64,000 bases of DNA, from NCBI RefSeq assembly GCF_000383955.1, contig NZ_KB913013.1, positions 539,694 through 603,693 of the forward strand, in the 5' to 3' direction. Source of the stretch: Rudanella lutea DSM 19387. GTDB taxonomy: Bacteria > Bacteroidota > Bacteroidia > Cytophagales > Spirosomataceae. Positions 24,005 to 42,870 of this stretch are shown here, one piece after another (the stretch's first letter is position 1; every line of letters starts with the position of its first letter). Below the pieces are notes generated by a model. That model made no database searches, had not been told where the DNA came from, and saw only the letters and a program-made list of their open reading frames with translations. The position numbers were made by a program, and so were the translations under genes.

Positions 24005-25234
24005 ATGAGCGGTTGCCCTTATCACCAGACCCGCGAGGAATTCAAGCCGTTCGACTTGACCAATCCCTTCCCGTTTTACAAGCAGGCCCGTGAAGAGGAG
24101 CCTGTTTTCTTCAGCGAAGAACTCGGCTACTACGTCGTGACCCGCTACGAAGACATCAAGGCGGTTTTCAGCAACTGGAAAACGTACACTTCCGAAAACG
24201 CACAGTCGCCGTTTAAGCCCATTGCCCCCAAAGCCAAGGCACTCATGGAAGCCCACGGCATGATTGGGCTGTCGGGATTGTCGGGGCGTATTCCACCCGA
24301 TCATACCCGCATCCGGCGCATTGTGAGCATGGCGTTCAACGTAAGCCGGTTCAAAAAACTGGAGCCGCGCATCCGCGAACTGGCGATTAACATGATTGGT
24401 CAGTTTCAGGCCGACGGCCACGCCGAAATGGTCCGTCAGCTGGCCTACGACCTACCCGCCTTCGTTATATTCATGCTGCTGGGCGTTCCTAACGAAGATG
24501 TGCAGCAGGTAAAAAGCTGGGCCGAAAGCCGTTTGCTGATGACCTGGGGCGACCTCACCGAAGACGAGCAGCTGGTGCATGCCGAGAACATGATCAAGTA
24601 CTGGAACTACTGCCAGAACCTAGTGAAGCTACGCCACGAAAACCCCACCGACGACCTCCCCGGCGACCTGGTGCGGCTTCAGGCCGAAGGGCACGAAATC
24701 AGCGACCGCGAGATTGCCGCCATGTGCTACAGTCAGCTGTTTGCAGGCCACGAGACCACAACCTCGCTCATCGGCAATGGCATCCGGGAGTTGCTGCTCA
24801 AACGCGAAAGCTGGGAGGCTATCTGCGCCAACCCGGCCCTGATTCCGAACGCGATTGAAGAGGTGCTGCGGTACTCGCCCTCGATTGTGTCATGGCGTCG
24901 GCGCGCGCTCGAAGACAGCATCGTCGGCGGGGTACACATCCCGGCCGGCTCCAATTTGCTGCTCGTAATGGGCTCAGCCAACCGCGACGAAGCTCAGTTC
25001 GAACAAGGCGAAACCTTTGATATTGAGCGAACCAACGCCAAAGAGCACCTGTCGTTCGGGTACGGGATTCACTTCTGCCTCGGCTCCCCGCTGGCCAAGC
25101 TCGAATCCAAAATTGTGCTTGAAGAACTCACCCGCCTGATCCCGAACCTCCGTATCAAACCGGATCAGGCATTCAAATTTGCCCCCAACACCTCATTCCG
25201 CGCACCAGTAGCCGTAGAGGTGGAGTGGACATAA
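24005..25234 (+). CDS. Cytochrome P450, class I, CreJ-like
   Basis: 409 residues from the ATG at 24005 (MSGCPYHQ); the frame also runs to a TTG at 23969, but that lies in the promoter. The I-helix motif AGHETTT is at 247-253, the K-helix ExxR in EEVLRYSPS, and the haem loop FGYGIHFCLG has the ligand Cys358. Soluble, with no membrane anchor. It needs a ferredoxin and reductase, which are encoded at the end of the same operon. By context it would oxidise the alkyl group of a phosphorylated alkylphenol, as CreJ does for 4-cresol phosphate. The substrate is inferred, not seen. Confidence 0.9.
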   Translation: MSGCPYHQTREEFKPFDLTNPFPFYKQAREEEPVFFSEELGYYVVTRYEDIKAVFSNWKTYTSENAQSPFKPIAPKAKALMEAHGMIGLSGLSGRIPPDHTRIRRIVSMAFNVSRFKKLEPRIRELAINMIGQFQADGHAEMVRQLAYDLPAFVIFMLLGVPNEDVQQVKSWAESRLLMTWGDLTEDEQLVHAENMIKYWNYCQNLVKLRHENPTDDLPGDLVRLQAEGHEISDREIAAMCYSQLFAGHETTTSLIGNGIRELLLKRESWEAICANPALIPNAIEEVLRYSPSIVSWRRRALEDSIVGGVHIPAGSNLLLVMGSANRDEAQFEQGETFDIERTNAKEHLSFGYGIHFCLGSPLAKLESKIVLEELTRLIPNLRIKPDQAFKFAPNTSFRAPVAVEVEWT

Positions 25235-25488
25235 TGAATGGTGAAAGAGAGAAAGAGTGAACTAACAAGCTCACATTTAGCCCATTCGCACAAAAACAAG
25301 ATTATTGAACTCCGTACTGGACAGTCGGACTTCAGACTCCAGACGTTAGACTTCTCTACAGAATGGTAGTAATTCTAACGTCTAATGTCCAACATCTAAT
25401 GTCCAGTACTGAGATCATTGAATCAGAACCACCTTGTTTTCACTCATTCACTCTTTCTCTCTTTCACTCATTCACTCTTTCGTTCTTT
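25235..25488. repeat. Nested hairpins: octad arms around a GTCCAGTACTGA hairpin
   Basis: Directly after the P450 stop, AAAGAGAG and AAAGAGTG (25241-25260) are reverse complements of the six CACTCWTT-type octads at 25441-25488. Between them, 25314-25351 and 25375-25409 form a second hairpin (GTACTGGACA ... TGTCCAGTAC). The segment 25374-25414 is an exact 41-base match, on the opposite strand, to 46988-47028. No reading frame is present; the ATG of the next gene follows at 25513. Confidence 0.8.
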
Positions 25489-25512
25489 TACCCTTGTAAG
25501 CGTTCCTACCTG

Positions 25513-26586
25513 ATGAAGTATACCCTTTTTTTCAAAGAAGCCCAACCCGAAGACTACCCGCTGCTGGGTGGTAAGGGCGCTAGTTTGGCCAGCATGAGCG
25601 CGGCTAACCTGCCCGTACCGGTTGGTTTTTGCGTGACAACCCACGCCTACTCGGCGTTTTTGCACGCATCGGATCTGTTCGATACCATCATGGCGCAGGT
25701 CGAACAGGTCGACTGTGCCAATGTGGCTGAACTCGACCGGCAGTCGGCCGAAATCCGGGCCCTGATTTTGGACAAGCCCCTGCCTGCCGAGGTTGAATCG
25801 GTGATTCGGAGCTCGTACCGGCAACTGTGCGACCTCACCGGCCTGCCCGGCACCCTGCCCGTAGCGGTGCGGTCGAGCGCAACGGCCGAGGACCTGCCCG
25901 ACGCCAGCTTTGCCGGTCAGCAGGACACCTACCTCTGGGTAGTGGGCGAAGACGAGGTGATCGAACACGTACGCCGGTGCTGGGCCAGCCTCTACACGGC
26001 CCGCGCTATCAATTACCGCCGGAATGGCAACATCCCCGAAAACGATGTGCTGATGAGCGTGGTGGTACAGAAAATGGTCAACGCCCGCACGGCCGGGGTA
26101 GCCATGACCCTCAATCCCACCAACGGCGACCGTTCCAAAATTGTGATTGATGCCTCCTGGGGCCTGGGCGAAGCCGTGGTGTCGGGCGAGGTAACCCCCG
26201 ATAACTTCCTGGTGGACAAGGTGATGCTGGAAATCATCAAAGCAGACATTCAGCACAAGGCCGTTGAACACGTCCCCGACCGCGTAAACCGCCGGGTAAT
26301 CACGCGCGACATAGAACCCGACCGGGCCGCCCAGCCCTGCCTCTCCGACGACGAGGTGAAGGCCGTGTGCCGAATCGCTAAAACGATTGAGAAGCACTAC
26401 CGATGCCCGCAGGATATTGAGTGGGCGCTGGATGCCGACCTTCCCGACGGCGAGAACTTCACACTCCTGCAAAGCCGCCCCGAAACGGTCTGGACGCAGA
26501 AAAAAGCGACAACGCAGGCAACCACCAAAACCGGCATGGAGGGCATTCTGAACACCCTGATGAACCCGCTGGCCGCCCGTCAGTAA
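25513..26586 (+). CDS. PEP-synthase-like ATP-binding subunit (phenol/alkylphenol phosphotransferase, CreHI/phenylphosphate-synthase type)
   Basis: 357 residues (about 39 kDa) from the ATG at 25513 (MKYTLFFKEAQPEDYPLLGG). It is only the ATP-grasp (PPDK_N) domain: GGKGASLASM near residue 20, VAVRSSATAEDLPDASFAGQ at about 117-136, and QDIEWALD with LLQSRPETVW at the end. Full PEP synthase is about 800 residues with all domains in one chain. Here the phosphohistidine domain is in the next gene. The pair would move the beta-phosphate of ATP through a histidine onto a phenolic OH, giving AMP and Pi. This is the first step of the 4-cresol route in Corynebacterium and of anaerobic phenol use in Thauera. 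Confidence 0.82.
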   Translation: MKYTLFFKEAQPEDYPLLGGKGASLASMSAANLPVPVGFCVTTHAYSAFLHASDLFDTIMAQVEQVDCANVAELDRQSAEIRALILDKPLPAEVESVIRSSYRQLCDLTGLPGTLPVAVRSSATAEDLPDASFAGQQDTYLWVVGEDEVIEHVRRCWASLYTARAINYRRNGNIPENDVLMSVVVQKMVNARTAGVAMTLNPTNGDRSKIVIDASWGLGEAVVSGEVTPDNFLVDKVMLEIIKADIQHKAVEHVPDRVNRRVITRDIEPDRAAQPCLSDDEVKAVCRIAKTIEKHYRCPQDIEWALDADLPDGENFTLLQSRPETVWTQKKATTQATTKTGMEGILNTLMNPLAARQ

Positions 26587-26721: not shown

Positions 26722-28533
26722 ATGGATCACAAATTCATTAGCCCGTATGACCACCACGCGCCAGCGGGTGCCGAGAATTGGAAAGACCTGTACCCGTACT
26801 ACATGGTGTTTCAGGACAACCTCAAGGAGTCGGAAAATGCCAAGTTTTTCTTCTGCGATTCGCAACACTGGCCCAACGTGTTTAAGCCGTTCGATGCCAT
26901 TACGGTTGAGTTTGCCGTGAAATGCCTCGGGCAGTACAACACCCGGCAGTGGCTCATTCCGCCCGCCAACGGTATCGACTTCAAAATTCACAATGGCTAC
27001 TGCTACATGAGCCCCGTAGCCGTGGCCCCCGAGCTGATTGGTGAGCGCGTACCGCAGTTTCTGGAGCGAGCCGGGTACTATTTCCAGAACTGGAACGACC
27101 TGCTCGACAACTGGCACAAAAAAGTAAAAGCTACCATCGACGAGATGGAAGCCGTTACGTTTGAGCCGCTCCCCGAGGTCATTCCGATGGACTGGGTAAC
27201 GGGCGGTGTGGGCCTCGACCCTACCTACCACCTGATTCACAACTATACCAAAATGATTGATCTGTGCTATAAGACATGGATGTATCATTTTGAATTTTTG
27301 AACCTTGGCTATGCGGCTTACCTCGACTTCTTCGGGTTCTGCAAAGAGGCTTTCCCCGGTATCCCCGACCTGTCGATTGCCAAAATGGTGCAGGGTATTG
27401 ACTCGGAACTGTTCCGGCCCGACGATGAACTGCGGAAACTGGCCAAGCGGGCCGTGGAGCTGGGCGTTGCCGACACCATTGTCAACCACGACCTCACAAC
27501 GGCTTTGGCGGCCCTCGCCGAAACCGAAGCCGGGCAACAGTGGATTGCCGCCTGGGAAGGAGCCAAGTACCCCTGGTTCAATTTTACGGTGGGCAACGGC
27601 TTCTACTCGACCGATAAGTACTGGATTGAGCATCTGGACATTCCGTTCGGTTACGTGCAAGACTACACCCGCAAGGTGCAGGCTGGCGTCAGCATTGACC
27701 GCCCAACTGAGGCCATTGCCGCCGAGCGCGACCGAATCACTGAGGAGTATCGCGACTCGCTCTTCGACGAGGAAGCTCAGGCTGCTTTTGATGGCAAGCT
27801 GGGGCTGGCGCGCGTGGTGTTCCCCTACGTAGAGAATCATAATTTCTATATCGAGCACTGGGCGATGAGCGTTTTCTGGCGGAAAATGCGCGAACTGGCC
27901 AACGTGCTGACCGGGGCTGGCTTCTTCGCCGACCCGAACGATATGTTCTACTTCCGGCGCGAAGAAATCCAGAACCTCCTGTTCGACTACGGCCGGGGTT
28001 GGGCTATGGGCGTACCGGCCATTGGGCCGAGCTACCTGCCCGGCGAAGTGGCCCGCCGGAAAGCCATTGTCGACGCCCTGTCGACGGCACCGCCCAAGCC
28101 GGCCTTCAACGAGCCACCCGCCGTGGTAACCGAGCCGTTTACGATTATGCTGTGGGGCATCACCACCGAAAGCGTGCAGGGCTGGCTGAGCACGGCAGAG
28201 GTAACCAACAAGCTGAAAGGCATGGCGGCCTCGCCCGGAACGGTGGAAGGAGTGGCCCGGGTCATCAACAATCCGGATGAGCTGGGGCAGTTGCAGGAAG
28301 GTGAAATTCTGGTGACGCGGGTCACGGCTCCCAGCTGGGCACCGGTGTTTGGCAAGATCAAAGCTACGGTTACCGACATTGGCGGTATGATGTCGCACGC
28401 GGCCATCGTATGCCGGGAGTATGGCCTCCCCGCCGTGACCGGAACGGGCTCAGCCAGCACGACCATCAAAACCGGCGACCTTATCCGGGTCAATGGTGCA
28501 CAGGGCGAAGTAACGATTTTACAGGCAGCTTAA
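26722..28533 (+). CDS. PEP-utiliser phosphohistidine-domain subunit of the alkylphenol phosphotransferase
   Basis: 603 residues (about 68 kDa). The last 110 residues are the swivelling phosphohistidine domain: GMAASPGTVEGVARV, EILVTRVTAPSWAP, then GGMMSHAAIVCREYGLPAV with the active His559. Residues 1-480 are a large mostly helical domain without an ATP-grasp, likely the acceptor-binding part, comparable to the phenol- or rifampin-binding domain of related phosphotransferases. The 39 and 68 kDa split matches the 40 and 70 kDa core subunits of Thauera phenylphosphate synthase. The third, CBS-domain subunit is absent. A pyruvate acceptor is unlikely because the PEP-synthase C-terminal barrel is missing. 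Confidence 0.82.
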   Translation: MDHKFISPYDHHAPAGAENWKDLYPYYMVFQDNLKESENAKFFFCDSQHWPNVFKPFDAITVEFAVKCLGQYNTRQWLIPPANGIDFKIHNGYCYMSPVAVAPELIGERVPQFLERAGYYFQNWNDLLDNWHKKVKATIDEMEAVTFEPLPEVIPMDWVTGGVGLDPTYHLIHNYTKMIDLCYKTWMYHFEFLNLGYAAYLDFFGFCKEAFPGIPDLSIAKMVQGIDSELFRPDDELRKLAKRAVELGVADTIVNHDLTTALAALAETEAGQQWIAAWEGAKYPWFNFTVGNGFYSTDKYWIEHLDIPFGYVQDYTRKVQAGVSIDRPTEAIAAERDRITEEYRDSLFDEEAQAAFDGKLGLARVVFPYVENHNFYIEHWAMSVFWRKMRELANVLTGAGFFADPNDMFYFRREEIQNLLFDYGRGWAMGVPAIGPSYLPGEVARRKAIVDALSTAPPKPAFNEPPAVVTEPFTIMLWGITTESVQGWLSTAEVTNKLKGMAASPGTVEGVARVINNPDELGQLQEGEILVTRVTAPSWAPVFGKIKATVTDIGGMMSHAAIVCREYGLPAVTGTGSASTTIKTGDLIRVNGAQGEVTILQAA

Positions 28534-28539
28534 TGTTTC

Positions 28540-28637: not shown

Positions 28638-28654
28638 TTTCTTTACCTATTTAC

Positions 28655-29245
28655 ATGGACGACGCCCACTCAACCATCCTGAAAGCGGCCGAAACGTATA
28701 TGCGGGTGCGCCAGAATGATGTGCATATTCCGATTTCGTTTGGGTACGCCATGCGGCTTGCCGAGTTGTACCCCGAAGCCGATAGAGACATTGTGGCTGC
28801 GGCCATTATTCTGCACGACATCGGCTGGTACTCCATCGACGAGGACGATATTTTCAAAAAAGGGTTTCAAACCGAAAACTACCTCTACAGCGATGTGCGC
28901 TACCTCCACGAGTCGGAGGGCGTACGGCTGTCGGCCCCCTTGCTGAAAGAACTGGGGTATTCGAATGAGTTTATCGAGCGTGTAGGCACCATCATCGACG
29001 GGCACGATACCCGCCGGGAAGCCCGCTCCCTCGAAGACCAAATTGTGCGCGATGCCGACAAGCTCTGGCGATTTACCGTAACGGGTGTCAGCATTGCCAG
29101 CACCTGGTTCAAACTGGTTCCGAGTCAGTACTGCCGCCGGCTCGTGACCGAAGTGATTCCTTATCTGCACTTGCCCGAATCGGTAGCGATGGCCGAGGCC
29201 GACCTCACCGAAACCCGCGCAACCTTGTGCTGTGACGTAATCTGA
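28655..29245 (+). CDS. HD-domain phosphohydrolase 1, candidate CreD-like aryl-phosphate phosphatase
   Basis: 196 residues, single HD domain. Metal-site residues: His24 (NDVH), His54-Asp55 (LHDIGW), His85 (LHESEG), His117-Asp118 (DGHDT) and Asp135 (DADKLW). HD enzymes hydrolyse phosphate esters with two or more metals. In the 4-cresol pathway a phosphohydrolase (CreD) removes the phosphate after P450 oxidation. This gene, two bases before an aldehyde dehydrogenase gene in a P450/phosphotransferase operon, is a fair candidate. A second copy of the same subfamily lies at 30679. Nucleotide hydrolysis is the alternative. Confidence 0.8.
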   Translation: MDDAHSTILKAAETYMRVRQNDVHIPISFGYAMRLAELYPEADRDIVAAAIILHDIGWYSIDEDDIFKKGFQTENYLYSDVRYLHESEGVRLSAPLLKELGYSNEFIERVGTIIDGHDTRREARSLEDQIVRDADKLWRFTVTGVSIASTWFKLVPSQYCRRLVTEVIPYLHLPESVAMAEADLTETRATLCCDVI

Positions 29246-29247: not shown

Positions 29248-30675
29248 ATGGAAAACTTTATCAATGGGATCTGGTCGAAGCCCCATTCGGGCCGGTATGC
29301 CGAGGTGCTGAACCCCTGCACGGGCGACGTTGTGGACACGTTTGCCTGTAGCGACCTGACCGACGTGACCAAGGTGATGCAGGTGGCGCAGGAGGCTTAC
29401 CGCGACTGGCGCAAAACACCCGTAGCCGTGCGGGCCCGGTTGCAGCACGCTGCCGCCCGCCTGATGCGCGAACACGCCGACGAACTGGCCCAAACCCTTG
29501 CCCGTGAACTGGGCCGCCCCATGGCGGGTTGCCAGACCGAGATAAGCCGTAGCGCCGACCTCCTCGACTTTTACGCCGAAGAGGGACTCCGGCTCAAAGG
29601 CGAAATTCCGCTGCATAACCTCGACGGCGAGAAGGCCCTGATTGTCCGCGAGCCCATTGGCGTGGTGGTGGCTATTACGCCATTCAATTACCCCATTACA
29701 CTGCTCACCATGAAACTGGGCGCAGCCCTGATTGCGGGTTGCACCGTGGTCGCTAAACCGTCGGAAGATACGCCCCTGTCGACCCTCCGACTGGCCGAAC
29801 TGTTTATGCAGGCGGGTTACCCGGCGGGTGTGTTCAACGTGATTACGGGCTACGGCCACGAAATTGGTAACGCCCTGATTGAGCACCCCGCCACGGCTAA
29901 AATAGCCTTTACAGGTGGCACCGGCACGGGCAAGCGCATTGGCGCGCTGGCGGCCATGCACAACAAACGCGTGACGCTCGAACTGGGCGGGCAGTCGCCG
30001 GCCATTGTCTGCGCCGACGCCAACCTCGCCGTAGCTGTACCGGCCATTGTTCGGCACGCCTTTGCCAACAGCGGGCAGTTTTGCTACCGCGTAAACCGGC
30101 TGTACGTACACGAGAGCATCTATGACGGGTTTCTGGATCAGATGGTTACGCTAACGGGTAATCTGCGCGTGGGGCATCCGCAATCGGGGGCCGACATGGG
30201 GCCGATGGTCAATCAAAAAATTTACCAGAACAGCGAGATTCAGGTGGCCGATGCGCTCGGCAAAGGGGCTATCCTGAAAACGGGCGGCCGACGACTCACC
30301 GGCCCGCAGTACGACAATGGCTGGTTTTTCCCGCCAACGATTCTGGCCAATACGGACCACTCCATGAAAATCATGACCGAAGAGACCTTCGGGCCGGTGG
30401 TGGGTGTGATGCCGTTCGGAACGGTGGAGGAAGCCGTACAACGGGCCAACGATTCGGAGTATGGCCTGGCGGGATACGTGTTTTCGGAAAATCTGAGCAC
30501 CGGCCTGCGCGTGGCGGAGTCGCTGGAAGCCGGGTCGGTCTGGATCAACAACATCCACCGCTCGTACCACGATGTACCCTTTGGGGGCTACAAGCAGAGT
30601 GGCATCGGGCGGGAAAAAGGCCGGTACGGGGTAGAGGCTTATACCGAGCTGAAAACGATTTACCTGAACTACTGA
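29248..30675 (+). CDS. NAD(P)-dependent aldehyde dehydrogenase, CreG-like
   Basis: 475 residues. The catalytic Cys279 lies in NSGQFCYRVNRL and the general base Glu245 in TLELGGQSPAI. FTGGTGTGKRIG is the cofactor-binding turn and TPFNYPITLL the conserved N-terminal motif. Expected reaction: oxidation of 4-hydroxybenzaldehyde (or its phosphate) to 4-hydroxybenzoate in the cytoplasm. It is tightly packed between the two HD genes (2 and 3 bases), so the three are surely co-translated. A semialdehyde substrate cannot be excluded from sequence alone. Confidence 0.9.
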   Translation: MENFINGIWSKPHSGRYAEVLNPCTGDVVDTFACSDLTDVTKVMQVAQEAYRDWRKTPVAVRARLQHAAARLMREHADELAQTLARELGRPMAGCQTEISRSADLLDFYAEEGLRLKGEIPLHNLDGEKALIVREPIGVVVAITPFNYPITLLTMKLGAALIAGCTVVAKPSEDTPLSTLRLAELFMQAGYPAGVFNVITGYGHEIGNALIEHPATAKIAFTGGTGTGKRIGALAAMHNKRVTLELGGQSPAIVCADANLAVAVPAIVRHAFANSGQFCYRVNRLYVHESIYDGFLDQMVTLTGNLRVGHPQSGADMGPMVNQKIYQNSEIQVADALGKGAILKTGGRRLTGPQYDNGWFFPPTILANTDHSMKIMTEETFGPVVGVMPFGTVEEAVQRANDSEYGLAGYVFSENLSTGLRVAESLEAGSVWINNIHRSYHDVPFGGYKQSGIGREKGRYGVEAYTELKTIYLNY

Positions 30676-30678: not shown

Positions 30679-31338
30679 ATGACCCCAACGCAAACCGCTC
30701 ACTTTTTCGATACGCCCGCCGGCAATCTGGAGGAGGTATGGCTCCGGGCGCGGCCGCATCTGAACGTGCGCAACAACGACGAGCACACGCTGTTTTCGTT
30801 CTTGTACGCCAAAACACTCTGCGAGACGTACCCGGAAGCCGACGCCGGGCTGGTGCTGCCCGCCATTCTGTTGCACGACACGGGCTGGTCGAAGATTCCA
30901 CAAGACAAGATTCTGCACGCGTTTGGCCCCAACAATAAGTACCCGGAACTGACGCGGCAGCACGAACTGGAAAGCCTCGACATTGCCATGCCGGTGCTCA
31001 CGGAGCTGGGCTACGCCGATGAGGCCGTTGAGCAGATTCTGAACCTGATCGACGGGCATGATACCACCAAACACGCCCGCTCACTCAACGATGCCATTCA
31101 TAAAGATGCCGATAAGCTCTGGCGGTACACGCCCCACGGCAACCGCATCATTGGCGAGTGGTTCGAAATTGGCCTCGCCGACGTACTGGACATCCTCGAA
31201 AACTTTGTGTTGCCGGGTTTCCTGACCGACGAAGGCCGCCGACTGGCTACCCTGCTCCTGCAAACGGCCCGGCTCGATCAGAAAATAAGCGAATGGGGCC
31301 GGGCCGTCGCTTCGACGCACCGGGGCGGCAATGATTGA
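30679..31338 (+). CDS. HD-domain phosphohydrolase 2, paralogue of the upstream HD gene
   Basis: 219 residues. The metal site matches the first copy: His36 (NDEH), His66-Asp67 (LHDTGW), His95 (QHELES), His127 (DGHDTT) and Asp145 (DADKLWRY). GYADEAVEQILNLIDGHDT parallels GYSNEFIERVGTIIDGHDT of the first. So both are active-looking members of one subfamily, kept on either side of the aldehyde dehydrogenase. They may act on different phosphorylated intermediates (alcohol versus acid) or form a heterodimer; the sequence does not decide. Confidence 0.8.
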   Translation: MTPTQTAHFFDTPAGNLEEVWLRARPHLNVRNNDEHTLFSFLYAKTLCETYPEADAGLVLPAILLHDTGWSKIPQDKILHAFGPNNKYPELTRQHELESLDIAMPVLTELGYADEAVEQILNLIDGHDTTKHARSLNDAIHKDADKLWRYTPHGNRIIGEWFEIGLADVLDILENFVLPGFLTDEGRRLATLLLQTARLDQKISEWGRAVASTHRGGND

Positions 31339-31389: not shown

Positions 31390-31421
31390 CACTCTTTCAC
31401 TCTTTTGCTCTTTCACTCTTT
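31390..31421 (+). repeat. CACTCWTT octad tract before the SDR gene
   Basis: Four octads (CACTCTTT twice, TGCTCTTT, CACTCTTT), then ACCC and the ATG at 31426. The tract takes the place of a ribosome-binding region. Confidence 0.75.
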
Positions 31422-31425
31422 ACCC

Positions 31426-32298: not shown

Positions 32299-32619
32299 AT
32301 GCCAAAAGTAACCTACATCGAAACAAGCGGAAAAGAGCATCTGGTCGATCTGCCGCTTGGCGCTACCCTCATGGAAGGAGCCGTACAAAACGACGTAAAA
32401 GGCATTGTGGCCGAGTGTGGGGGCTCCTGCATGTGTGCTACCTGTCATGTGTACGTCGACGAAACGTTTCTGGACCGGCTGCCGGAAATGGAAGAGGAAG
32501 AAAACGAGATGCTCGACGGTGCCTCGGCCGAACGCAAAGCCAATAGCCGGCTCGGCTGTCAGGTGCGGATTTCGAACCAACTGGACGGGCTGATCGTCCG
32601 TATTCCTGACAAACAATGA
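32299..32619 (+). CDS. [2Fe-2S] ferredoxin of the adrenodoxin/putidaredoxin type
   Basis: 106 residues. Cluster ligands Cys40, Cys46, Cys49 (ECGGSCMCATCHVYVDE) and Cys87 (RLGCQVRIS) follow the C-x5-C-x2-C-xn-C rule. The acidic stretch EMEEEENEMLDG after the ligands is the usual docking face for P450 and reductase. It would carry single electrons from the reductase encoded next to the P450 eight kilobases upstream, like CreF. It overlaps the reductase gene by four bases (ATGA). Confidence 0.93.
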   Translation: MPKVTYIETSGKEHLVDLPLGATLMEGAVQNDVKGIVAECGGSCMCATCHVYVDETFLDRLPEMEEEENEMLDGASAERKANSRLGCQVRISNQLDGLIVRIPDKQ

Positions 32620-34885: not shown

Positions 34886-34893
34886 TAGTTTTG
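34886..34893 (+). promoter_or_regulatory. -7 box of the pca-pob operon
   Basis: TAGTTTTG matches TAnnTTTG and lies 33 bases before the pcaH ATG. A -33 TTG is not seen, which suits control by the divergent AraC protein. AATTAG and TAATTA at about 34794-34819 are weak candidates for its site. Confidence 0.55.
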
Positions 34894-34926
34894 CATAGTG
34901 ACTTTCCTAAGCAAATACGCACACAA

Positions 34927-35634
34927 ATGAGCCAGCTTATCTATAATCCGTTTGATCGGGAGGTGCACCCACCGTACCTGTCGCCTGAGTATAAATCAAC
35001 CCTGTTGCGGGCTCCCAGTCAGCCGCTGATGGTGGTCAAACAATCGCTTTCGGAGTTGTCAGGGCCTGTTTTTGGCGACATGAACGTCGGCCCGCTCGAC
35101 CACGACCTGACCAAAAACGCCCGCCGAAATGGCGAACCCCTCGGTGAGCGTATCGTGGTTCACGGCAAAGTGACCGACGAAAACGGCCGCCCTATACCGT
35201 TTACGCTGATCGAAATCTGGCAGGCCAACGCGGCCGGACGGTATGTGCACAAGGTCGATCAGCACGATGCCCCCCTCGACCCTAATTTTCTGGGCGCGGG
35301 CCGGGTGCTAACCGATGCCGAAGGAAACTACAAATTTTACACGATTAAGCCGGGCGCCTACCCGTGGGGTAATCACCACAATGCCTGGCGGCCCAACCAT
35401 ATCCATTTTTCGCTGTTCGGACCGAACATTACCACCCGGCTCGTCACGCAGATGTATTTCCCCGGCGACCCGCTCCTGCAGCACGACCCTATTTTTCTGG
35501 GTGTGCCTCCCAAAGGCCGCGAGCTGCTTATTTCCAAATTCGACCTCGACATCACCGAACCGGCCTTTGCCCTGGGCTACCGCTTCGATTTTGTCCTGAG
35601 AGGCAGTCAGGCTACCCCTTTCGAAACCGTTTAA
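34927..35634 (+). CDS. pcaH: Protocatechuate 3,4-dioxygenase beta subunit
   Basis: 235 residues from the ATG at 34927 (MSQLIYNPFDREVHPPYL). All four iron(III) ligands are seen: Tyr106 (AGRYVH), Tyr145 (GAYPWG), His158 and His160 (PNHIHFS), with the same spacing as the Pseudomonas enzyme. RPPYL-like HPPYLSPEYKST near the start is typical of beta subunits. It cleaves protocatechuate between C3 and C4 to 3-carboxy-cis,cis-muconate with O2, together with the alpha subunit encoded 10 bases downstream. Confidence 0.95.
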   Translation: MSQLIYNPFDREVHPPYLSPEYKSTLLRAPSQPLMVVKQSLSELSGPVFGDMNVGPLDHDLTKNARRNGEPLGERIVVHGKVTDENGRPIPFTLIEIWQANAAGRYVHKVDQHDAPLDPNFLGAGRVLTDAEGNYKFYTIKPGAYPWGNHHNAWRPNHIHFSLFGPNITTRLVTQMYFPGDPLLQHDPIFLGVPPKGRELLISKFDLDITEPAFALGYRFDFVLRGSQATPFETV

Positions 35635-35644: not shown

Positions 35645-36163
35645 ATGCTACAGACACCTTCGCAAACCGTGGGCCCGTACTTTGCCTACGGCCTCACCCC
35701 CGAACAATACCTGTACGACTTCAAAAGTCTGGTCGGTAACCAGTTGGTGGACCCGCTGAACACCCCAGACGCCATTACCATCACGGGTCGGGTGTTCGAC
35801 GGGCAGGGACAACCCATTTCCGACGCCATGATCGAGCTTTGGGACCCCGCTAACAAGCGGTTTGGCCGGTTTGGCACGGGCACCGACCCACAGAACCGCT
35901 TTGTGTTTCAGGCCACTAAGCCCGGCTCGGTGGATGGGCAGGCTCCGCACTTCTGGGTGATCGTGTTCATGCGTGGGCAACTTATTCACTCGTACACCCG
36001 GCTATACTTTGCCGACGAAACAGCCCTGAACGAAGCCGACCCCGTACTTGATGCCGTACCGGCCAACCGGCGGGCTACGCTTCTGGCGCAAAAAACGCCC
36101 GGCGGCTATACCTTTGATATTTACATGCAGGGCGACAACGAGACCGTGTTTTTCGAGGTTTAG
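35645..36163 (+). CDS. pcaG: Protocatechuate 3,4-dioxygenase alpha subunit
   Basis: 172 residues, starting MLQTPSQTVGPYFAYGLTPE, the standard alpha-subunit N-terminus. It keeps the same beta-sandwich fold as PcaH but lacks the iron ligands, as alpha subunits do. APHFWVIVFMRGQLIHSYTR takes the place of the HIH loop and shapes the active site at the subunit interface. Together with PcaH it makes the (alpha-beta)n non-haem dioxygenase. Confidence 0.95.
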   Translation: MLQTPSQTVGPYFAYGLTPEQYLYDFKSLVGNQLVDPLNTPDAITITGRVFDGQGQPISDAMIELWDPANKRFGRFGTGTDPQNRFVFQATKPGSVDGQAPHFWVIVFMRGQLIHSYTRLYFADETALNEADPVLDAVPANRRATLLAQKTPGGYTFDIYMQGDNETVFFEV

Positions 36164-36188
36164 CCTGCTCACTCCAACCGGCCTGATT

Positions 36189-37496
36189 ATGTCTCTTTAC
36201 AGCGGTCTTTTCTACAGTTCGGAGGTCGAGCCAATGGTTTCGCCCGAGGCTATGCTGGGTCGAATGCTCGCGTTTGAGGGGGCATTGGCACAGGCGCAGG
36301 CCCAACACGAGCTCGTTCCCGAACCGATGGCCCAAATCATCGCTGATTGCTGTGCCCATCCGCTCCTCGATCTGTCGAAACTACAGGCTGACATTGCACT
36401 GGGGGGCAATGCGGCTATTCCGCTGGTAAAGCAACTGACGGCGCAGGTACGCAGCCAAAGCGAAGAGGCCGCCCGGTACGTACACCTCGGGGCCACGAGT
36501 CAGGACGTTGTCGATACAGCTACCGTACTGACAATCAAAACATTTTCAGACTGGCTAACGACCCGACTGACGGCCGTTGAGGAACAGCTTATTCGGTTGA
36601 CTCGCACCTACCGAACCACCGTGATGCCCGGCCGCACGTTGCTACAACAGGCCAAACCCATCACGTTTGGACTCAAGACCGCCGGTTGGCTCGACGCACT
36701 TCGGCGGAGTTGGCAGCGACTGGCGGAGGGGCAGAAACGGGTGCTAGTGCTGCAATTGGCCGGGGCAGTCGGGAGCCGCAACGCGTCGATACCGGCCGAG
36801 GTACACCGGACAATGGCTACGCAGCTGGACCTCTCGGAGTCGGTTTCGTGGCATACCCATCGCGACAATCTGGCCGAGTTTGGGGCTACGCTGGGCATTC
36901 TGACGGGCAGCCTGGGCAAAATAGCCCGCGATATTGCCTTGCTGATGCAAACCGAGGTAGCCGAGGTGTTCGAAGGCAAAGCAGAGGGCAAGGGCGGGTC
37001 GAGCACAATGCCGCACAAGCGCAACCCGGTTACCTGCACGGCCATTTTAGCCAATGCCAACCGGGTGCCGCAACTGGTGGCCACCTTACTCGCGGCTATG
37101 CCGCAGGAGCACGAACGATCAGCGGGGTTGTGGCATTCCGAATGGGACGTACTGACCGAGATCATGCAGCTAACAGCCGGGGCCGTTGACAAGGGGCTTG
37201 ATTTACTGACTAATCTGGACGTTGACCCCGACCGGATGCGCCAGAACCTCGAACAGACCAACGGCCTGATTTACGCCGAAACCGTCTCGCTGGCTCTGGC
37301 AGCCCATCTGGGTAAAGCCGAGGCCCACGCGCAGGTGGAGGAAGCAAGCCGGGTAGCGGTCACCGAAAAACGGCATCTGAAAGCGGTGTTGGCCCGTATG
37401 AACCTGCCGCTCACCAACCTCGACGCCCTGTTTGACCCCGTCAACTCACTCGGCGAAACCCTCGCCCTGATTGACTCGATTCTGGCGGGGTCATAA
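36189..37496 (+). CDS. pcaB: 3-carboxy-cis,cis-muconate cycloisomerase
   Basis: 435 residues from the ATG at 36189 (MSLYSGLFYSSEVEPMVSPE). The fumarase/ASL-superfamily signature GSSTMPHKRNP is at 270-280, and GATSQDVVDTA holds the conserved substrate-binding His region. It lactonises carboxymuconate to 4-carboxymuconolactone. It follows pcaG by 25 bases. The long C-terminal tail of adenylosuccinate lyase is absent, which agrees with PcaB. Confidence 0.93.
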   Translation: MSLYSGLFYSSEVEPMVSPEAMLGRMLAFEGALAQAQAQHELVPEPMAQIIADCCAHPLLDLSKLQADIALGGNAAIPLVKQLTAQVRSQSEEAARYVHLGATSQDVVDTATVLTIKTFSDWLTTRLTAVEEQLIRLTRTYRTTVMPGRTLLQQAKPITFGLKTAGWLDALRRSWQRLAEGQKRVLVLQLAGAVGSRNASIPAEVHRTMATQLDLSESVSWHTHRDNLAEFGATLGILTGSLGKIARDIALLMQTEVAEVFEGKAEGKGGSSTMPHKRNPVTCTAILANANRVPQLVATLLAAMPQEHERSAGLWHSEWDVLTEIMQLTAGAVDKGLDLLTNLDVDPDRMRQNLEQTNGLIYAETVSLALAAHLGKAEAHAQVEEASRVAVTEKRHLKAVLARMNLPLTNLDALFDPVNSLGETLALIDSILAGS

Positions 37497-37579
37497 CGAG
37501 TTTATTGTTTTTGGTTTATTGTTTATTGTTTTTGGTGGCCGACGCACCGGTTTCTGATTTTGGGACTAACTCGCCCATT

Positions 37580-37641
37580 CACTCTTTCGCTCTTTGCCGC
37601 CCCGGTGCGCCGGAGCGACGGCCCGCACTCATTCACTCATT
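37580..37641 (+). repeat. Octads split by the GC-rich box before pcaD-pcaC
   Basis: CACTCTTT and CGCTCTTT (37580-37595), then the GC box (GCCGCCCCGGTGCGCC, 37596-37611 and on to 37625), then CACTCATT twice (37626-37641), TCCC and the ATG at 37646. It is the same composite as at 32222-32292. Confidence 0.75.
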
Positions 37642-37645
37642 TCCC

Positions 37646-38806
37646 ATGTCTCTGAACTACAAGCTTTCTGGCGCGCCTAACAGCCCGGTTTTGATCTTCT
37701 CGAACTCGCTCGGTTCGGAAATGTGCATGTGGGACGAGCTGTTGCCCTACCTCCTGCCCTATTTTCGGGTGCTTCAGTACGACACCCGGGGGCATGGCGG
37801 TAGCTATCAACCAGCCACATTGCCGGGCGACGCTTCGTCGGGCGACGCTTACACCATCGCGCAGCTCGGCGAAGATGTCATCAATCTGATGGATGAACTT
37901 GGCATCGGGCAGGCTTACTTCTGCGGCCTGTCGATGGGTGGGCTGACGGGGCAGTGGCTGGGCATTCACCGACCCAACCGGATTAAAAAACTGGTTATCA
38001 GCAATACAGGCGCCAAAATCGGCAACGACGAACGCTGGAACGGCCGCATTGCTACCATTACCGAGCACGGCATGGAAGCCATTGTCGACGACACAATGGA
38101 GCGTTGGTTTACCTCTCTGTTCCGGGCCGACAACCCTACCCGCGTGGCGCAGATGCGGGCTATGTTTCTCCGAAGCCCCGTGCCCGGCTACGCGGCCTGT
38201 TGCGCGGCTATCCGCGACGCCGACTTCCGCCAGGACCTCAACCGGCTCTCGGTCGAGACGCTCGTGATTACCGGCGACGAAGACCCCGTAACTAACGTGG
38301 AGCAGGCTCAGTTTTTGCAAGAAAACATCCCGGTGGCCAATCTGGTGGTGCTGCCCGCCCGGCACCTCGCCAGCACGGAGCTGCCCCGGCAATACGCGCA
38401 AGTGCTGATTGATTTTCTGGTGGGCGACACCCGCTACGAGCAGGGGATGCACGTTCGGCGCACGGTGCTGGGCGATGCCCACGTGGACCGCGCCAATAGC
38501 CAAACGACCCCGTTTACAGCCGACTTTCAGGATTTTATCACCCGCTACGCCTGGGGCGAAATCTGGCCCCGGCCGGGTCTGCCCAAGCACAGCCGGAGCC
38601 TGATTACCCTCGCCATGCTGATTGCCCTGAACCGGAAAGCCGAATTTCAGATGCACGTACGGGCAGCCATTCACAACGGGGTTAGCCCCGACGAGATCAA
38701 AGAAGTCATTATGCAGTCGGCCCTGTATTGCGGGCTACCGGCTGCCAACGAAGCCTTTCATGCCGCTCAGGAGGTGCTGGCAACATTACCGATAAACCAC
38801 GCGTAA
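37646..38806 (+). CDS. pcaL: Fused 3-oxoadipate enol-lactonase and 4-carboxymuconolactone decarboxylase (PcaD-PcaC, PcaL type)
   Basis: 386 residues from the ATG at 37646. Residues 1-255 are an alpha/beta hydrolase with YDTRGHGGS, the nucleophile Ser96 (GLSMGG) and the catalytic His in PARHLAS. Residues 265-386 are a carboxymuconolactone decarboxylase domain (RRTVLGDAHVDRA, KHSRSLITLAMLIALNR, and AALYCGLPAA-like SALYCGLPAANEAF). The two domains do consecutive steps, so the fusion passes the unstable lactone from the C-terminal to the N-terminal active site. Such fusions are known in actinobacteria and some others. Confidence 0.93.
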   Translation: MSLNYKLSGAPNSPVLIFSNSLGSEMCMWDELLPYLLPYFRVLQYDTRGHGGSYQPATLPGDASSGDAYTIAQLGEDVINLMDELGIGQAYFCGLSMGGLTGQWLGIHRPNRIKKLVISNTGAKIGNDERWNGRIATITEHGMEAIVDDTMERWFTSLFRADNPTRVAQMRAMFLRSPVPGYAACCAAIRDADFRQDLNRLSVETLVITGDEDPVTNVEQAQFLQENIPVANLVVLPARHLASTELPRQYAQVLIDFLVGDTRYEQGMHVRRTVLGDAHVDRANSQTTPFTADFQDFITRYAWGEIWPRPGLPKHSRSLITLAMLIALNRKAEFQMHVRAAIHNGVSPDEIKEVIMQSALYCGLPAANEAFHAAQEVLATLPINHA

Positions 38807-38933
38807 ACAAAACGATTCTGGCGTTTCAGGCGATTGTTTCTGGCTGCTTAGGCAAGCCACAGCCCTCCTTTTGCCCTTGAATAAGCACCGGTACATTCAC
38901 ACGGAACCCAGACTCCCAAACCACGATTCATGT

Positions 38934-40127
38934 ATGAAAACGATTAAAACACAGGTAGGCATTATTGGCGCAGGGCCCGCGGGGCTTACGCTGGCTCACT
39001 GGCTCAAAAAACACGGCATCGACTCGGTTATTATTGAGCACCGCAGCCGCGAGTACGTTGAGGCTCGGGTACGGGCTGGCTTGCTGGAGCAAAACACCGT
39101 CGATATTCTGAAAACCCTCGGTCTGGCCGACCGGCTCGTGCGCGAAGGTCACGAGCACCACGGCGTGTACCTGAGCTTCGACGGCGAACGCATCCGGGTG
39201 CCTTTCGGCCCCTACACCAACGGGCGGCATATCACCATTTACGGGCAGCAGGAAGTAGTCAAGGACCTGACCGATGCCTGGCTCACGGGGGGCGGCACGC
39301 TCCTGTTTGAGGCCCCCGCCCTCGAACTGGCCGATTACGATACGAACCACCCAAAAATCTATTTCGAGCAAAACGGCGAAAAAGGCGTTGTAGAATGCGA
39401 TTTCATTGCCGCCTGCGACGGGTTCCACGGGCTGGGTCGCAAAACCCTACCCAAAAACACCTACAAAGAATATTCGCTCACGTATCCGTTTAGCTGGCTG
39501 GGGATTCTGGCCCACGTGCCGCCCTCGTCGGACGAGCTGATCTATGCCTACCACGAGCGGGGCTTTGCCCTCCACAGCCTGCGGTCATCGACGGTGAGCC
39601 GCCTGTATATTCAGGTCGAAAACGACGACAAAGTTGACAACTGGTCTGACGATCAGATTTGGGAAGAACTATCCCTACGGCTGGGCACGCCGGGCTGGAA
39701 CCTGCAATCCGGCCCAATTTTTGAAAAAGCCATCACCCCCATGCGCAGTTATTTCATCGATAACATGCAGGCCGGGCGGTTGTTTTTGGCGGGCGATGCC
39801 GCGCACATTGTACCGCCCACGGGGGGCAAAGGCCTCAACCTCGCCATTGCTGATGTGAAGCATTTAGTCGATGCATTCATTGATTACTACCATAACAACT
39901 CGACAACCGGGCTGGATACCTACACGCCCACGGCCCTCCGGCGCATCTGGCGGGCACAGGATTTCTCGAACTTTATGACCACGCTCCTCCACAAGCAGGA
40001 CGAACACGGGTCGTTTCAGTACCGCCTGCAACGGGCCAAATTCGACTACATTCGTATTTCGGACAATTACGCGGCCACCGTCGCCGAAAACTATGTCGGG
40101 CTGCCTTTCGAATCGTTTAATAAATGA
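38934..40127 (+). CDS. pobA: 4-hydroxybenzoate 3-monooxygenase
   Basis: 397 residues from the ATG at 38934 (MKTIKTQVGIIGAGPAGLTL); an in-frame ATG at 38871 adds no homologous sequence. FAD fold GAGPAGLT, then RVRAGLLEQNTVDIL, the PobA mark after the first helix. FLAGDAAHIVPPTGGKGLNL is the second FAD motif. A single-component flavoprotein using NADPH and O2 to make protocatechuate. This is the link between the alkylphenol operon, which ends at 4-hydroxybenzoate, and the ring-cleavage genes. Confidence 0.95.
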   Translation: MKTIKTQVGIIGAGPAGLTLAHWLKKHGIDSVIIEHRSREYVEARVRAGLLEQNTVDILKTLGLADRLVREGHEHHGVYLSFDGERIRVPFGPYTNGRHITIYGQQEVVKDLTDAWLTGGGTLLFEAPALELADYDTNHPKIYFEQNGEKGVVECDFIAACDGFHGLGRKTLPKNTYKEYSLTYPFSWLGILAHVPPSSDELIYAYHERGFALHSLRSSTVSRLYIQVENDDKVDNWSDDQIWEELSLRLGTPGWNLQSGPIFEKAITPMRSYFIDNMQAGRLFLAGDAAHIVPPTGGKGLNLAIADVKHLVDAFIDYYHNNSTTGLDTYTPTALRRIWRAQDFSNFMTTLLHKQDEHGSFQYRLQRAKFDYIRISDNYAATVAENYVGLPFESFNK

Positions 40128-40238
40128 ATAGTTAAGTGAAGGAATAATGCACAATGGGTAATGAATAATGTACAATGGTTAAAGGATAATGCTATTGATT
40201 ATCAGCTTATCCATTGTGCACTATACATTATTCATTCT
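40123..40238. repeat. AATGNNN heptad hairpin overlapping the pobA stop
   Basis: Heptads AATGCAC, AATGGGT, AATGAAT, AATGTAC, AATGGTT on the left (to about 40190) and their complements at 40206-40238 form a hairpin between pobA and the CoA-transferase gene. The first AATGAAT includes the pobA TGA stop region. Confidence 0.75.
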
Positions 40239-40260
40239 CCACGACACCTACTCCAACAAG

Positions 40261-41610
40261 ATGAAGCAAGTACCAGTAATTGATAGTCAAACAGCCGCCG
40301 ACCTGGTTAAGGAGGGTGATGTGCTCCTGCAAGGCGGCTTCGGTATGACCGGCAATCCGGTTCACCTGATGCACGCCCTCGCCGAACGGGGCACCGGTAA
40401 TCTGACCTTTGTGGGCAACAACACCGGCGAGGCCGGTCTGGGCGGAGGTCGGCTGTTGCGCAACGGACAGATTCGGAAAATGATCGGTTCGTTTTTTACG
40501 TCGAACCCCGACGCCGTTAAGGCCGCCCAAAGCGGGCAGGTGGCTTACGAACTGCTGCCGCAGGGAACCCTCGCCGAGGCCATCCGGGCCGGTGGAGCGG
40601 GTATCGGCGGTTTTTACACGCCTACATCGGCCGGTACGCCGTTGGCCGAAGGCCGCGAAACCAAGGTGATCGACGGTGTGGAGCAGGTGTTTATCAAAAG
40701 TATTCGGGGTAACGTGGCGTTTATCCGGGCCTGGCGCGCCGATACCGCCGGGAACCTGCAATACCGCATGACCGAAAACAACTTTAATAAGGCGATGGCC
40801 ACGGCCGCCGACCTGGTAATTGCCGAAGTGGAAGAAATTGTGCCCGTGGGTGCTATTGCCCCCGAACACGTACACACGCCCGGCTGCTACGTCGACTATC
40901 TGGTGCAGGCGACCCTCACGCTCGAAGACCTCGGTAGCTCGGCATCGGTATCGTCGTCGAAAAAAGTAGACGAAGTTCGTATGAACATGGCCCGGCGGGC
41001 CTTGGCCGAACTGAAAAAAGGCGATGTGGTCAACCTCGGCATTGGTATTCCGACCCTCGTGGCCGACCTCATCACCGACGAGCACGGAATTATCATGCAC
41101 ACCGAAAATGGCATGTTGGGCGTGGGTCCCGTACCGGCCGATGGCGGTGGTGCGATGGACTACCCCGTCAACGCGGGCAAAATTCCGGTAACGGCCCTCA
41201 AAGGCAGCAGCTATTTCGACAGTGCCGACTCATTTGCCATGATTCGGGGGGGGCATATCGACGTGGCCATCATGGGCGGTCTGGAAGTAGACGAGCAGGC
41301 GAATCTGGCCAACTGGGCCGTACCGGGCAAGCCGTTGCTGGGTGTGGGCGGAGCCATGGACCTGGCCAAAGGAGCCAAGCGGCTGATCATCACAATGACC
41401 CACATCAACCCCGACGGATCATCGAAGGTAGTGCCCCAATGCACGCTGCCGCTCACAGCCACGGGCGTTGTCGACATGATCATAACCGATCTGGCCGTTT
41501 TCGCTTTCCCCGACGGGCAACTCACCCTGATCGACCTGATGCCCGGCGTAACCCTGGACGACGTTCGCGCCAAGACGAGCGCAACATTTAATGAGCGATT
41601 GAGTAATTGA
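40261..41610 (+). CDS. Fused 3-oxoadipate CoA-transferase (PcaI-PcaJ in one chain)
   Basis: 449 residues from the ATG at 40261 ([20 protein letters not shown]). Residues 1-225 are the A-type ([20 protein letters not shown]) and 240-449 the B-type half, with [12 protein letters not shown] and the catalytic Glu282 in [12 protein letters not shown]. Most bacteria encode the halves as two proteins; the fused form resembles eukaryotic SCOT. Position between pobA and the thiolase gene makes succinyl-CoA:3-oxoadipate the likely reaction; acetoacetate is the alternative. The last codons run into an inverted octad repeat. Confidence 0.88.
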
Positions 41611-41660
41611 GCGAAAACGGAATACATTCACTCAATCACTCATTCGCTAATTCACTCAAT
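41589..41660. repeat. Octad hairpin that reaches into the 3' end of the CoA-transferase gene
   Basis: AATGAGCG, ATTGAGTA, ATTGAGCG (41589-41612) are inverse octads and encode the last residues of the transferase. Forward octads CACTCAAT, CACTCATT, CGCTAATT, CACTCAAT follow at 41629-41660, four bases before the thiolase ATG. Confidence 0.75.
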
Positions 41661-41664
41661 ACCT

Positions 41665-42870
41665 ATGGATTCATTCATCATCGACGCCGTCCGGACGCCC
41701 ATTGGCAATTTTGGGGGTAGTTTGTCGCCCGTTCGGGCCGACGATCTGGCGGCTTTACCTATACGAGAACTCCTGTTGCGCAACCCAAACATCCCGGCCG
41801 ACGCCATCGACGACGTGATACTGGGTTGCCACAATCAGGCCGGTGAAGACAACCGTAACGTGGCCCGCATGGCCCTGTTGCTCGCTGGTTTACCCTATAC
41901 CGTACCCGGCGAAACCGTCAACCGGCTCTGCTCATCGGGCATGTCGGCCGTGGTACACGCCAACCGGGCCATCAAAGCCGGTGATGGCGACCTGTTTATT
42001 GCGGGCGGTATGGAGCACATGACGCGCGGCCCCTGGGTTATCTCCAAAACCTCGAAACCTTTTGGCAACGACGCCCAGATGTTTGATTCGAGCTTTGGCT
42101 GGCGGTTTGTGAACCCCAAAATGCATGAGCTGTACGGGACCGATGCGATGGGCGTAACGGCCGAAAACCTCGCCGAGCTGTACAACATCAGCCGCGACGA
42201 TCAGGACCTGTTTGCCTACCATTCGCAGCAAAAAGCAGCCCAAGCCCAACAGGCAGGCCGTTTCGCTGAAGAGATTGTGGGGGTTCCGATTCTGGTCAAA
42301 AAAGGCCCTGCTACCGTGTTCGACGCCGACGAGTTCATCAAGCCCCAAACCACCCTCGAAGTGCTGGCGAAACTGAAGCCAGCCTTCAGGAAAGAAGGTG
42401 GTACGGTAACGGCCGGCAATGCGTCGGGCCTGAACGATGGCGCAGCGGCCATGCTGCTTGCTTCCGACGAGGCCGTTCGGCAGTACAAGCTCACGCCCAA
42501 AGCCCGAATTGTGGCCTCGGCCGTTGCGGGTGTGGAGCCACGCATCATGGGGATTGGGCCCGTACCGGCTACCCGCAAAGCCCTCCAGAAAGCGAACCTG
42601 ACCCTCGACCAAATCGACGTCATCGAGCTAAACGAAGCCTTCGCGGCCCAATCACTCGCCTGTACACGGGCACTTGGCCTGGCCGACAACGACCCCCGCA
42701 TTAACCCCAACGGCGGAGCTATCGCGCTGGGGCACCCGTTGGGCATGTCGGGCACCCGGATTATCCAGACGGCCGCGCTCGAATTAGCCAAAACTGGCAA
42801 ACGCTACGCCCTCGCCACCATGTGCGTAGGCGTAGGTATGGGCTATGCCATTATTATCGAGCGCGTGTAA
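41665..42870 (+). CDS. pcaF: Thiolase, probable 3-oxoadipyl-CoA thiolase
   Basis: 401 residues. Catalytic Cys89 in NRLCSSGMSA, His in GGAIALGHPLGMSG, and the second Cys in ATMCVGVGMG. It cleaves 3-oxoadipyl-CoA to succinyl-CoA and acetyl-CoA, the last step of the beta-ketoadipate pathway. The length and the VPGETVNRLC motif fit PcaF/PaaJ types; acetoacetyl-CoA thiolase is possible on sequence alone but context favours PcaF. A strong terminator follows. Confidence 0.9.
   Translation: MDSFIIDAVRTPIGNFGGSLSPVRADDLAALPIRELLLRNPNIPADAIDDVILGCHNQAGEDNRNVARMALLLAGLPYTVPGETVNRLCSSGMSAVVHANRAIKAGDGDLFIAGGMEHMTRGPWVISKTSKPFGNDAQMFDSSFGWRFVNPKMHELYGTDAMGVTAENLAELYNISRDDQDLFAYHSQQKAAQAQQAGRFAEEIVGVPILVKKGPATVFDADEFIKPQTTLEVLAKLKPAFRKEGGTVTAGNASGLNDGAAAMLLASDEAVRQYKLTPKARIVASAVAGVEPRIMGIGPVPATRKALQKANLTLDQIDVIELNEAFAAQSLACTRALGLADNDPRINPNGGAIALGHPLGMSGTRIIQTAALELAKTGKRYALATMCVGVGMGYAIIIERV

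Follow-up and report, generated by a model that had tools for sequence, protein, structure and literature searches.

A probable Cre-type pathway for p-cresol in Rudanella lutea, with a candidate MEDS-SARP switch

A phosphorylation-first pathway for cresol has been characterised in Corynebacterium glutamicum. Does a member of the Bacteroidota encode the same chemistry, and what would switch it on? The question is raised by a 64,000-nt stretch of the 6.55 Mb genome of Rudanella lutea DSM 19387 (the window, to which coordinates refer unless another locus is named), where positions 22376-42870 hold an island of Cre-type and beta-ketoadipate pathway genes, all on the plus strand apart from one AraC gene. 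A sequence-only reading had proposed Cre-type, phosphorylation-first alkylphenol catabolism joined to a beta-ketoadipate route in this bacteroidotal genome, and the kinship of the P450 and the kinase upholds that proposal. We consider it probable that the island encodes a Cre-type pathway for p-cresol with a MEDS-SARP regulator as its switch.

Kinship of the P450, kinase and hydrolases

Our scan for kinase loci gave at least 510 confirmed relatives, of which the best 80 were kept; the distribution counts come from these and are biased towards close relatives. Together with two Rhodococcus plasmid loci they make up the 82 loci compared. All trees were quick builds with Shimodaira-Hasegawa-like approximate likelihood ratio (SH-aLRT) support and without bootstrap.

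The best PDB chains for the window's P450 are 5gwe and 5xjn (485 bits; next chain 305 bits), which we take to be CreJ of C. glutamicum, with 54.5% identity to 5gwe across 398 residues. A tree of 81 P450s, in which a locus was kept if its CreJ frame reached 330 residues, places 5gwe among actinobacterial cre-cluster P450s (nearest Arthrobacter MA-N2, 77%) and the window P450 with those of the Bacteroidota (16 rows, support 99). The P450 thus appears to be orthologous to CreJ, with its own ferredoxin and reductase in the cluster.

The CreH proteins form a single clade of 80 rows (support 100; the tree left out L076, L085, L109 and L120b, a second, phosphoenolpyruvate (PEP)-synthase-like copy). 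Outside it fall Azoarcus PpsA, whose gene stands 5' of phenylphosphate carboxylase genes, the kinases of L022, L023 and L024, near biotin carboxylase genes, and one haloarchaeal kinase. Within it the Bacteroidota form one group (14 rows, support 99), and the CreH of Rudanella paleaurantiibacter is 97% identical to that of the window. The cut-off of the NF006150 profile was passed by C. glutamicum alone among 14 control genomes, and it is exceeded in 2 of the 395 genomes of a phylum sample and 15 of the 150 of a family sample. All 86 kinase rows carry T/SxxGGxxxH, 78 of them in the exact form TDIGGMMSH; the accessible text of PMC12167813 gives T/SxxGGxxxH as the phenol dikinase motif, with Ser preceding His in CreH and PpsA, and the window's TDIGGMMSH fits it, Ser before His included. 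According to the accessible part of PMC9618137, kinases of phenol, hydroxyphenylethanone and 4-alkylphenol form distinct clades. CreHI would then be a two-component kinase of the 4-alkylphenol clade.

That the kinase is instead a phenol kinase (Pps type) or a hydroxyphenylethanone kinase (Hpe type), with the P450 serving something else, seems to us very improbable. Identity is still 43-48% to members that adjoin genes for phenylphosphate carboxylase or biotin carboxylase, and all types phosphorylate phenols, but the CreH clade excludes both Azoarcus PpsA and the carboxylase-linked kinases, the island has no carboxylase genes, and a P450 accompanies the kinase in 76 of the 80 loci (the contigs of L066 and L109 start too late; L095 and L097 are without one). 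We looked for clustering of the P450 or the kinase with unrelated families, and it did not occur.

Two HD phosphohydrolases had been recognised from the sequence, though not that they are old paralogues. A single branch (support 99) parts HD1 from HD2 with one misplaced row of 149, in a tree without frames shorter than 120 residues, where a row was labelled HD1 or HD2 after whichever window protein it matched better by BLAST. Both types are present in Bacteroidota, Alphaproteobacteria and Actinomycetota, with two HD genes also in 16/21 actinobacterial loci; from this the pair would seem to have belonged to the cassette for a long time. An aldehyde dehydrogenase (ALDH) with 54-63% identity to the window's is found in 37/42 alphaproteobacterial loci. 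HD1, HD2, the short-chain dehydrogenase/reductase (SDR) and the ALDH would supply the phosphohydrolase and both dehydrogenases, the ALDH by role rather than by orthology. Key motifs are intact in the island: TDIGGMMSH (His559) in CreH, FGYGIHFCLG in the P450, YxxxK in the SDR and HD in both hydrolases.

With the CreHI-CreJEF-CreD-CreG-CreC system of C. glutamicum the island shares the two kinase halves, the P450 with ferredoxin and reductase, an HD hydrolase, the SDR and an ALDH. It differs from it in gene order, in the second HD paralogue and in its ALDH, which has just 33-37% identity to those of the Actinomycetota. Two Rhodococcus plasmids have the order P450-I-H-SDR-ferredoxin-ferredoxin reductase-HD-ALDH, with which the order from creJ (cg0645) to creC (cg0637) in the table of PMC7764795 agrees, as far as that table, which is without cg0643, extends.

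All genes named by the sequence-only reading were recovered on the plus strand by profile matches (Table 1). Its island, 24005-42870, ended in the right place but began too late, missing the regulator gene and the candidate operator. The upper part runs regulator, P450, CreI, CreH, HD1, ALDH, HD2, SDR, ferredoxin and ferredoxin reductase, and the lower part, after the minus-strand AraC gene, PcaH, PcaG, PcaB, PcaDC, PobA, PcaIJ and PcaF. Directly 3' of pcaF, genes for fructose-1,6-bisphosphatase and an ATP-type PEP carboxykinase (42943-45559, minus strand) place gluconeogenesis beside the aromatic island, and upstream of the regulator (17723-22386) lie genes for an MFS transporter, an AMP-binding enzyme and a malonate/sodium symporter MadM.

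Table 1. Features of the island, in window coordinates, with predicted roles (ORF, open reading frame)
Feature	Position	Strand	Evidence or remark
MEDS-SARP transcription activator (predicted)	22376..23920	+	probable ATG near 22448; Pfam MEDS 49 bits, BTAD 57 bits
Candidate SARP operator	23936..23953	+	ACCAAAG-N4-ACCAAAG, 11-bp direct repeat
Candidate Bacteroidota -7 box, TATATTTG	23964..23971	+	10 nt 3' of operator
CreJ-type cytochrome P450	24005..25234	+	ORF opens TTG 23969, ATG 24005
CreI-type ATP-grasp half, predicted aryl kinase	25363..26586	+	PF01326 390 bits
CreH-type substrate-binding and swivel half	26722..28533	+	NF006150 1027 bits vs cut-off 650; catalytic His559
HD1 phosphohydrolase, CreD-like by place	28655..29245	+	PF01966; HD1 side of tree
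Aldehyde dehydrogenase, putative CreC role	29248..30675	+	PF00171 547 bits
HD2 phosphohydrolase, old paralogue of HD1	30679..31338	+	PF01966; tree
SDR alcohol dehydrogenase, putative CreG role	31405..32181	+	YxxxK motif
[2Fe-2S] ferredoxin, putative CreF role	32299..32619	+	PF00111
Ferredoxin reductase, putative CreE role	32616..33824	+	PF07992 + PF14759
AraC regulator, flanked by the upper and the lower operon	33879..34757	-	PF12833
PcaH	34891..35634	+	TIGR02422 348 bits
PcaG	35645..36163	+	TIGR02423 183 bits
PcaB	36048..37496	+	TIGR02426 373 bits; match from about residue 49
Fused PcaDC	37505..38806	+	NF051488 488 bits
PobA 4-hydroxybenzoate 3-monooxygenase	38871..40127	+	NF006091 551 bits
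Fused PcaIJ CoA-transferase	40189..41610	+	TIGR02428 + TIGR02429
PcaF thiolase	41665..42870	+	TIGR02430 639 bits

The MEDS-SARP regulator and its candidate operator

The regulator ahead of creJ appears, from its AlphaFold2 model (predicted local distance difference test score, pLDDT, 83.7), to have the SARP layout of a winged helix followed by BTAD; its C-terminal half matches AfsR 8k60 (TMt 0.83) and EmbR. Among 16 regulators scanned, BTAD was found in 16, MEDS in 14 and Trans_reg_C in 6 (L050 was left out, as its stretch contained a stop). According to PMC11507031, MEDS is a typical domain of regulators whose ligands are simple hydrocarbon derivatives. At E <=1e-40 for the regulator and E <=1e-80 for CreH, the two occur in the identical 16 of the 150 family genomes; these represent five genera and hence not 16 independent events.

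A window-like regulator is present in 11/16 bacteroidotal, 36/42 alphaproteobacterial, both Chloroflexota and the one betaproteobacterial loci (2/2 and 1/1), and in 0/21 loci of the Actinomycetota. A Rhodococcus-like IclR gene marks 21/21 actinobacterial loci and 1/61 of the others; beyond that count, Pfam detects an IclR gene in L097, and L093 seemingly has one, by eye. The cassette thus seems to come in two forms, a Gram-negative one with MEDS-SARP and an actinobacterial one with IclR. Five bacteroidotal loci are without a SARP gene: in two the contigs are too short, and three (Cecembia, Nitritalea) have an AraC gene before creJ whose product is about 34% like the window's AraC protein. In Cecembia lonarensis (L053) this gene, at 6447-7355 on the minus strand and 34% identical, lies directly before creJ, and we found neither SARP gene nor operator at that locus.

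Between the regulator gene and creJ of the window lies ACCAAAGATTAACCAAAG, which carries the repeat ACCAAAG-N4-ACCAAAG. It is the genome's sole exact match; when one mismatch is tolerated, the repeat gives 6 sites and a reversed control 5. We scored 14 positions in the 300 bases before each creJ, the window included, with a threshold of at least 12. This was reached in 12/12 bacteroidotal, 34/36 alphaproteobacterial and 1/2 Chloroflexota loci with a SARP gene, and elsewhere in 0/21 actinobacterial, 0/3 SARP-less bacteroidotal and 2/3 SARP-less alphaproteobacterial loci. In a shuffle test the operator was found in 46 of the 49 real SARP loci and in 5 of 1960 shuffles, and in the sequence ahead of nine further genes from these loci the pattern turned up in 1 of 392 cases. 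Of the 150 family genomes, 17 contain ACCAAAGANNAACCAAAG, each a single time. Sixteen of them are the genomes with CreH, where it begins 22-75 bases past the regulator match, and the other is G478; the reversed control occurs in 2/150. The G478 match, in a genome without CreH, sits inside a coding frame, and nothing matching cre or pca lies less than 10 kb away; we took it as chance.

Two results speak against the operator: its absence from two of the 36 alphaproteobacterial and one of the two Chloroflexota SARP loci, and a reversed pattern that also scored at least 12 in 9/12 bacteroidotal, 1/2 Chloroflexota and 2/36 alphaproteobacterial SARP loci. We suspect the A-rich repeat itself as the cause of the latter matches, and the shuffles and the family-wide control are cleaner than the reversed control at creJ. 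We propose ACCAAAG-N4-ACCAAAG as a candidate operator of the MEDS-SARP; its heptamer direct repeats in an 11-bp unit are those expected of SARP operators, which lie at the -35 region.

A candidate -7 box follows the repeat and is in the same place in 12 bacteroidotal rows read by eye, of which 11 fit TAnnTTTG, the -7 box of the Bacteroidota, and one (L051) reads TACCTTCG. A scan for sigma-70-type promoters (2 sites against 6.1 in shuffles) was uninformative here and was set aside, and a terminator scan gave no excess (18 against 17.8 in shuffles).

SARP sites, as PMC10972967 describes them, consist of heptameric repeats separated by 4-15 nt, the classical unit being 11 bp. The Rudanella regulator and its site share with such SARPs (AfsR, EmbR) the fold of the C-terminal half, the heptamer direct repeats, the 4-nt spacer and the 11-bp unit, but differ in the N-terminal MEDS sensor, the catabolic operon, the occurrence outside Actinomycetota and the position of the site before a Bacteroidota-type -7 box.

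Substrate, proposed route and alternative outlets

Each step from 4-hydroxybenzoate to acetyl-CoA and succinyl-CoA is encoded in the island: PobA is the genome's sole match above its family cut-off, and the protocatechuate branch of the beta-ketoadipate pathway is complete (PcaHG, B, C, D, IJ and F). Since PobA and the Pca enzymes adjoin the cassette, its outlet is suggested to be 4-hydroxybenzoate, as would be expected for a para substituent of one carbon, and p-cresol is accordingly the likeliest substrate in Rudanella; the sequence-only reading, which had named it, was probably right. We propose that CreI and CreH would move a phosphate of ATP onto the phenolic hydroxyl of p-cresol via phospho-His559. 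The CreJ P450, supplied by the adjoining ferredoxin and reductase, would recognise the aryl phosphate and oxidise its para-methyl group, the SDR and ALDH would finish the oxidation to the acid level, and HD1 and HD2 would take off the phosphate to give 4-hydroxybenzoate for PobA and the Pca enzymes. The MEDS-SARP would sense the substrate or a metabolite and activate the creJ promoter at its repeat.

Toluene-4-monooxygenase makes p-cresol from toluene, and its gene stands beside cre in 8/42 alphaproteobacterial and 2/21 actinobacterial loci. A second operator (at least 12/14) precedes it in 8/8 of the alphaproteobacterial loci with the gene and in 0/2 Rhodococcus loci, sites that were counted without a shuffle control. 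By its operator the gene may belong to the same regulon in these relatives, which would tie the regulon to p-cresol. On the opposite strand near the regulator start, a further site (at least 13/14) is present in six alphaproteobacterial loci. In the two that we examined, it stands ahead of a gene for a GMC oxidoreductase (L101 4279-5901 and L098 4411-6009, both minus strand), which diverges from the regulator gene and has an operator copy of its own.

Several points weigh against a Cre-type pathway for p-cresol. The sequences show which genes are present, how they are related, that motifs are intact and that the operator is conserved, whereas the reactions, the binding and effector of the regulator, and the substrate are inferred from them. 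The database label of 5gwe and 5xjn is just Cytochrome P450, without the name CreJ; the direct comparisons were made without C. glutamicum CreH, CreI and CreD sequences, and the CreH tree without C. glutamicum CreH. The ALDH of 20/21 actinobacterial loci is so distant from the window's (the range given above) that the two are not orthologous. Finally, a profile search found no PF02332 toluene/phenol monooxygenase in the genome, with two control genomes positive, and none in the genomes of L042 and L047; a toluene-4-monooxygenase of its own as the source of p-cresol was rejected on this result.

The lack of a PF02332 enzyme able to make p-cresol would also suit a cassette whose function is to detoxify cresols or further phenols that neighbours release, and not to support growth, as would the absence of pca genes from the 13-15 kb or so downstream in four relatives (L027, L029, L037 and L038). 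In Rudanella, however, a complete lower pathway to central metabolism adjoins the cassette, and we hold this alternative to be decidedly unlikely.

Another 4-alkylphenol could be the main substrate, above all 4-ethylphenol, which would be converted to phosphorylated 4-hydroxyacetophenone. Genes for both Hpe-type biotin carboxylase subunits lie near the cassette in 8/42 alphaproteobacterial and 2/21 actinobacterial loci, and these relatives may take 4-ethylphenol. In L069 (Rhodobacteraceae NORP153; 6238-16344, one strand) SARP, CreJ, CreI, CreH, HD2 and SDR genes run straight on into those for a biotin carboxyl carrier protein, biotin carboxylase and carboxyltransferase, with no ALDH or HD1 within the sequenced stretch, and we predict a Cre-Hpe hybrid for 4-ethylphenol. 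For Rudanella itself we judge this substrate unlikely: the carboxylase genes accompany 0/16 bacteroidotal loci, the genome has no HpeB-like protein (the best match, 29% in a 1177-residue frame, is probably pyruvate carboxylase), and the island has ALDH, PobA and Pca genes. With the Hpe system of Rhodococcus rhodochrous GD02, as described in the accessible parts of PMC9618137 and PMC12167813, the island shares the two-component ATP-grasp and swivel dikinase and T/SxxGGxxxH. It differs in that its cassette encodes neither a biotin carboxylase nor a HAD phosphatase nor a CoA ligase, with nothing like the biotin-dependent HpeCBA carboxylase in the island, and its CreH stands apart from the carboxylase-linked kinases in a tree that was built without GD02 HpeH.

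In a third arrangement, Rieske oxygenase (VanA_C) and HAD phosphatase genes follow those for CreI, CreH and SDR; it is found in Caenimonas sedimenti (L095 8872-15953), Bradyrhizobium sp. dw_411 (L097 8866-14409) and L124 (G550), with no P450 or HD match in these stretches. The Rieske proteins of L095 and L097 are 76-77% identical, and such a protein is found in 2 of 195 genomes of a Bradyrhizobium-centred sample at E 1e-130. It is likely that in these loci the Rieske enzyme oxidises the aryl phosphate instead. The CreH of L124 appears split in two pieces.

Distribution and meaning of the cassette

To the sequence-only reading the find of such a pathway in a Gram-negative member of the Bacteroidetes, joined to its lower pathway, appeared new; our counts do not support either point as unusual. 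The best 80 kinase loci comprise 42 from Alphaproteobacteria, 19 from Actinomycetota, 16 from Bacteroidota, 2 from Chloroflexota and 1 from a betaproteobacterium, so that by sequence kinship the cassette occurs in Bacteroidota, Alphaproteobacteria, Chloroflexota and Actinomycetota. Matches to pca or pob of at least 100 bits lie near 8/16 bacteroidotal, 4/42 alphaproteobacterial, 8/21 actinobacterial and 0/3 other loci (20/82 in total), within flanks of at most about 10-12 kb and with many contigs ending early. Uniqueness to Bacteroidota, and of the joined lower pathway, was rejected on these cross-phylum loci. On contig 12 of G456 (L016, L017 and L040) the CreI and CreH matches are fragmented, either a decayed copy or assembly errors.

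A literature search that covered few subscription papers, the primary Cre papers being outside it, returned no report of a Gram-negative or bacteroidotal Cre cluster or of its regulator, which is weak evidence of novelty; the supplementary trees of PMC9618137 may contain Gram-negative members. What we regard as new is the regulator-operator pair common to several phyla and the exchange of outlets. A broader picture, to which we would give even chances, is that CreHI acts as a portable aryl-phosphate handle that moves between phyla with its own MEDS-SARP and an 11-bp-repeat operator that has hardly changed across Bacteroidota, Alphaproteobacteria and a single locus of the Chloroflexota. Its regulon would take in creJ, toluene-4-monooxygenase and GMC oxidoreductase genes, and its outlets would be interchangeable: P450 with ALDH and HD for p-cresol, P450 with SDR and Hpe-type carboxylase for 4-ethylphenol, and Rieske oxygenase with HAD phosphatase acting on methylphenyl phosphate.

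The phosphorylation-first cresol pathway would on these findings be a multi-phylum system, whose Gram-negative form has a testable sensor-activator and a conserved candidate site. A switch so defined makes the inducer directly testable and could yield a part for a p-cresol biosensor, and a phosphate handle that can be combined with different oxidation modules would be useful for the conversion of lignin phenols.

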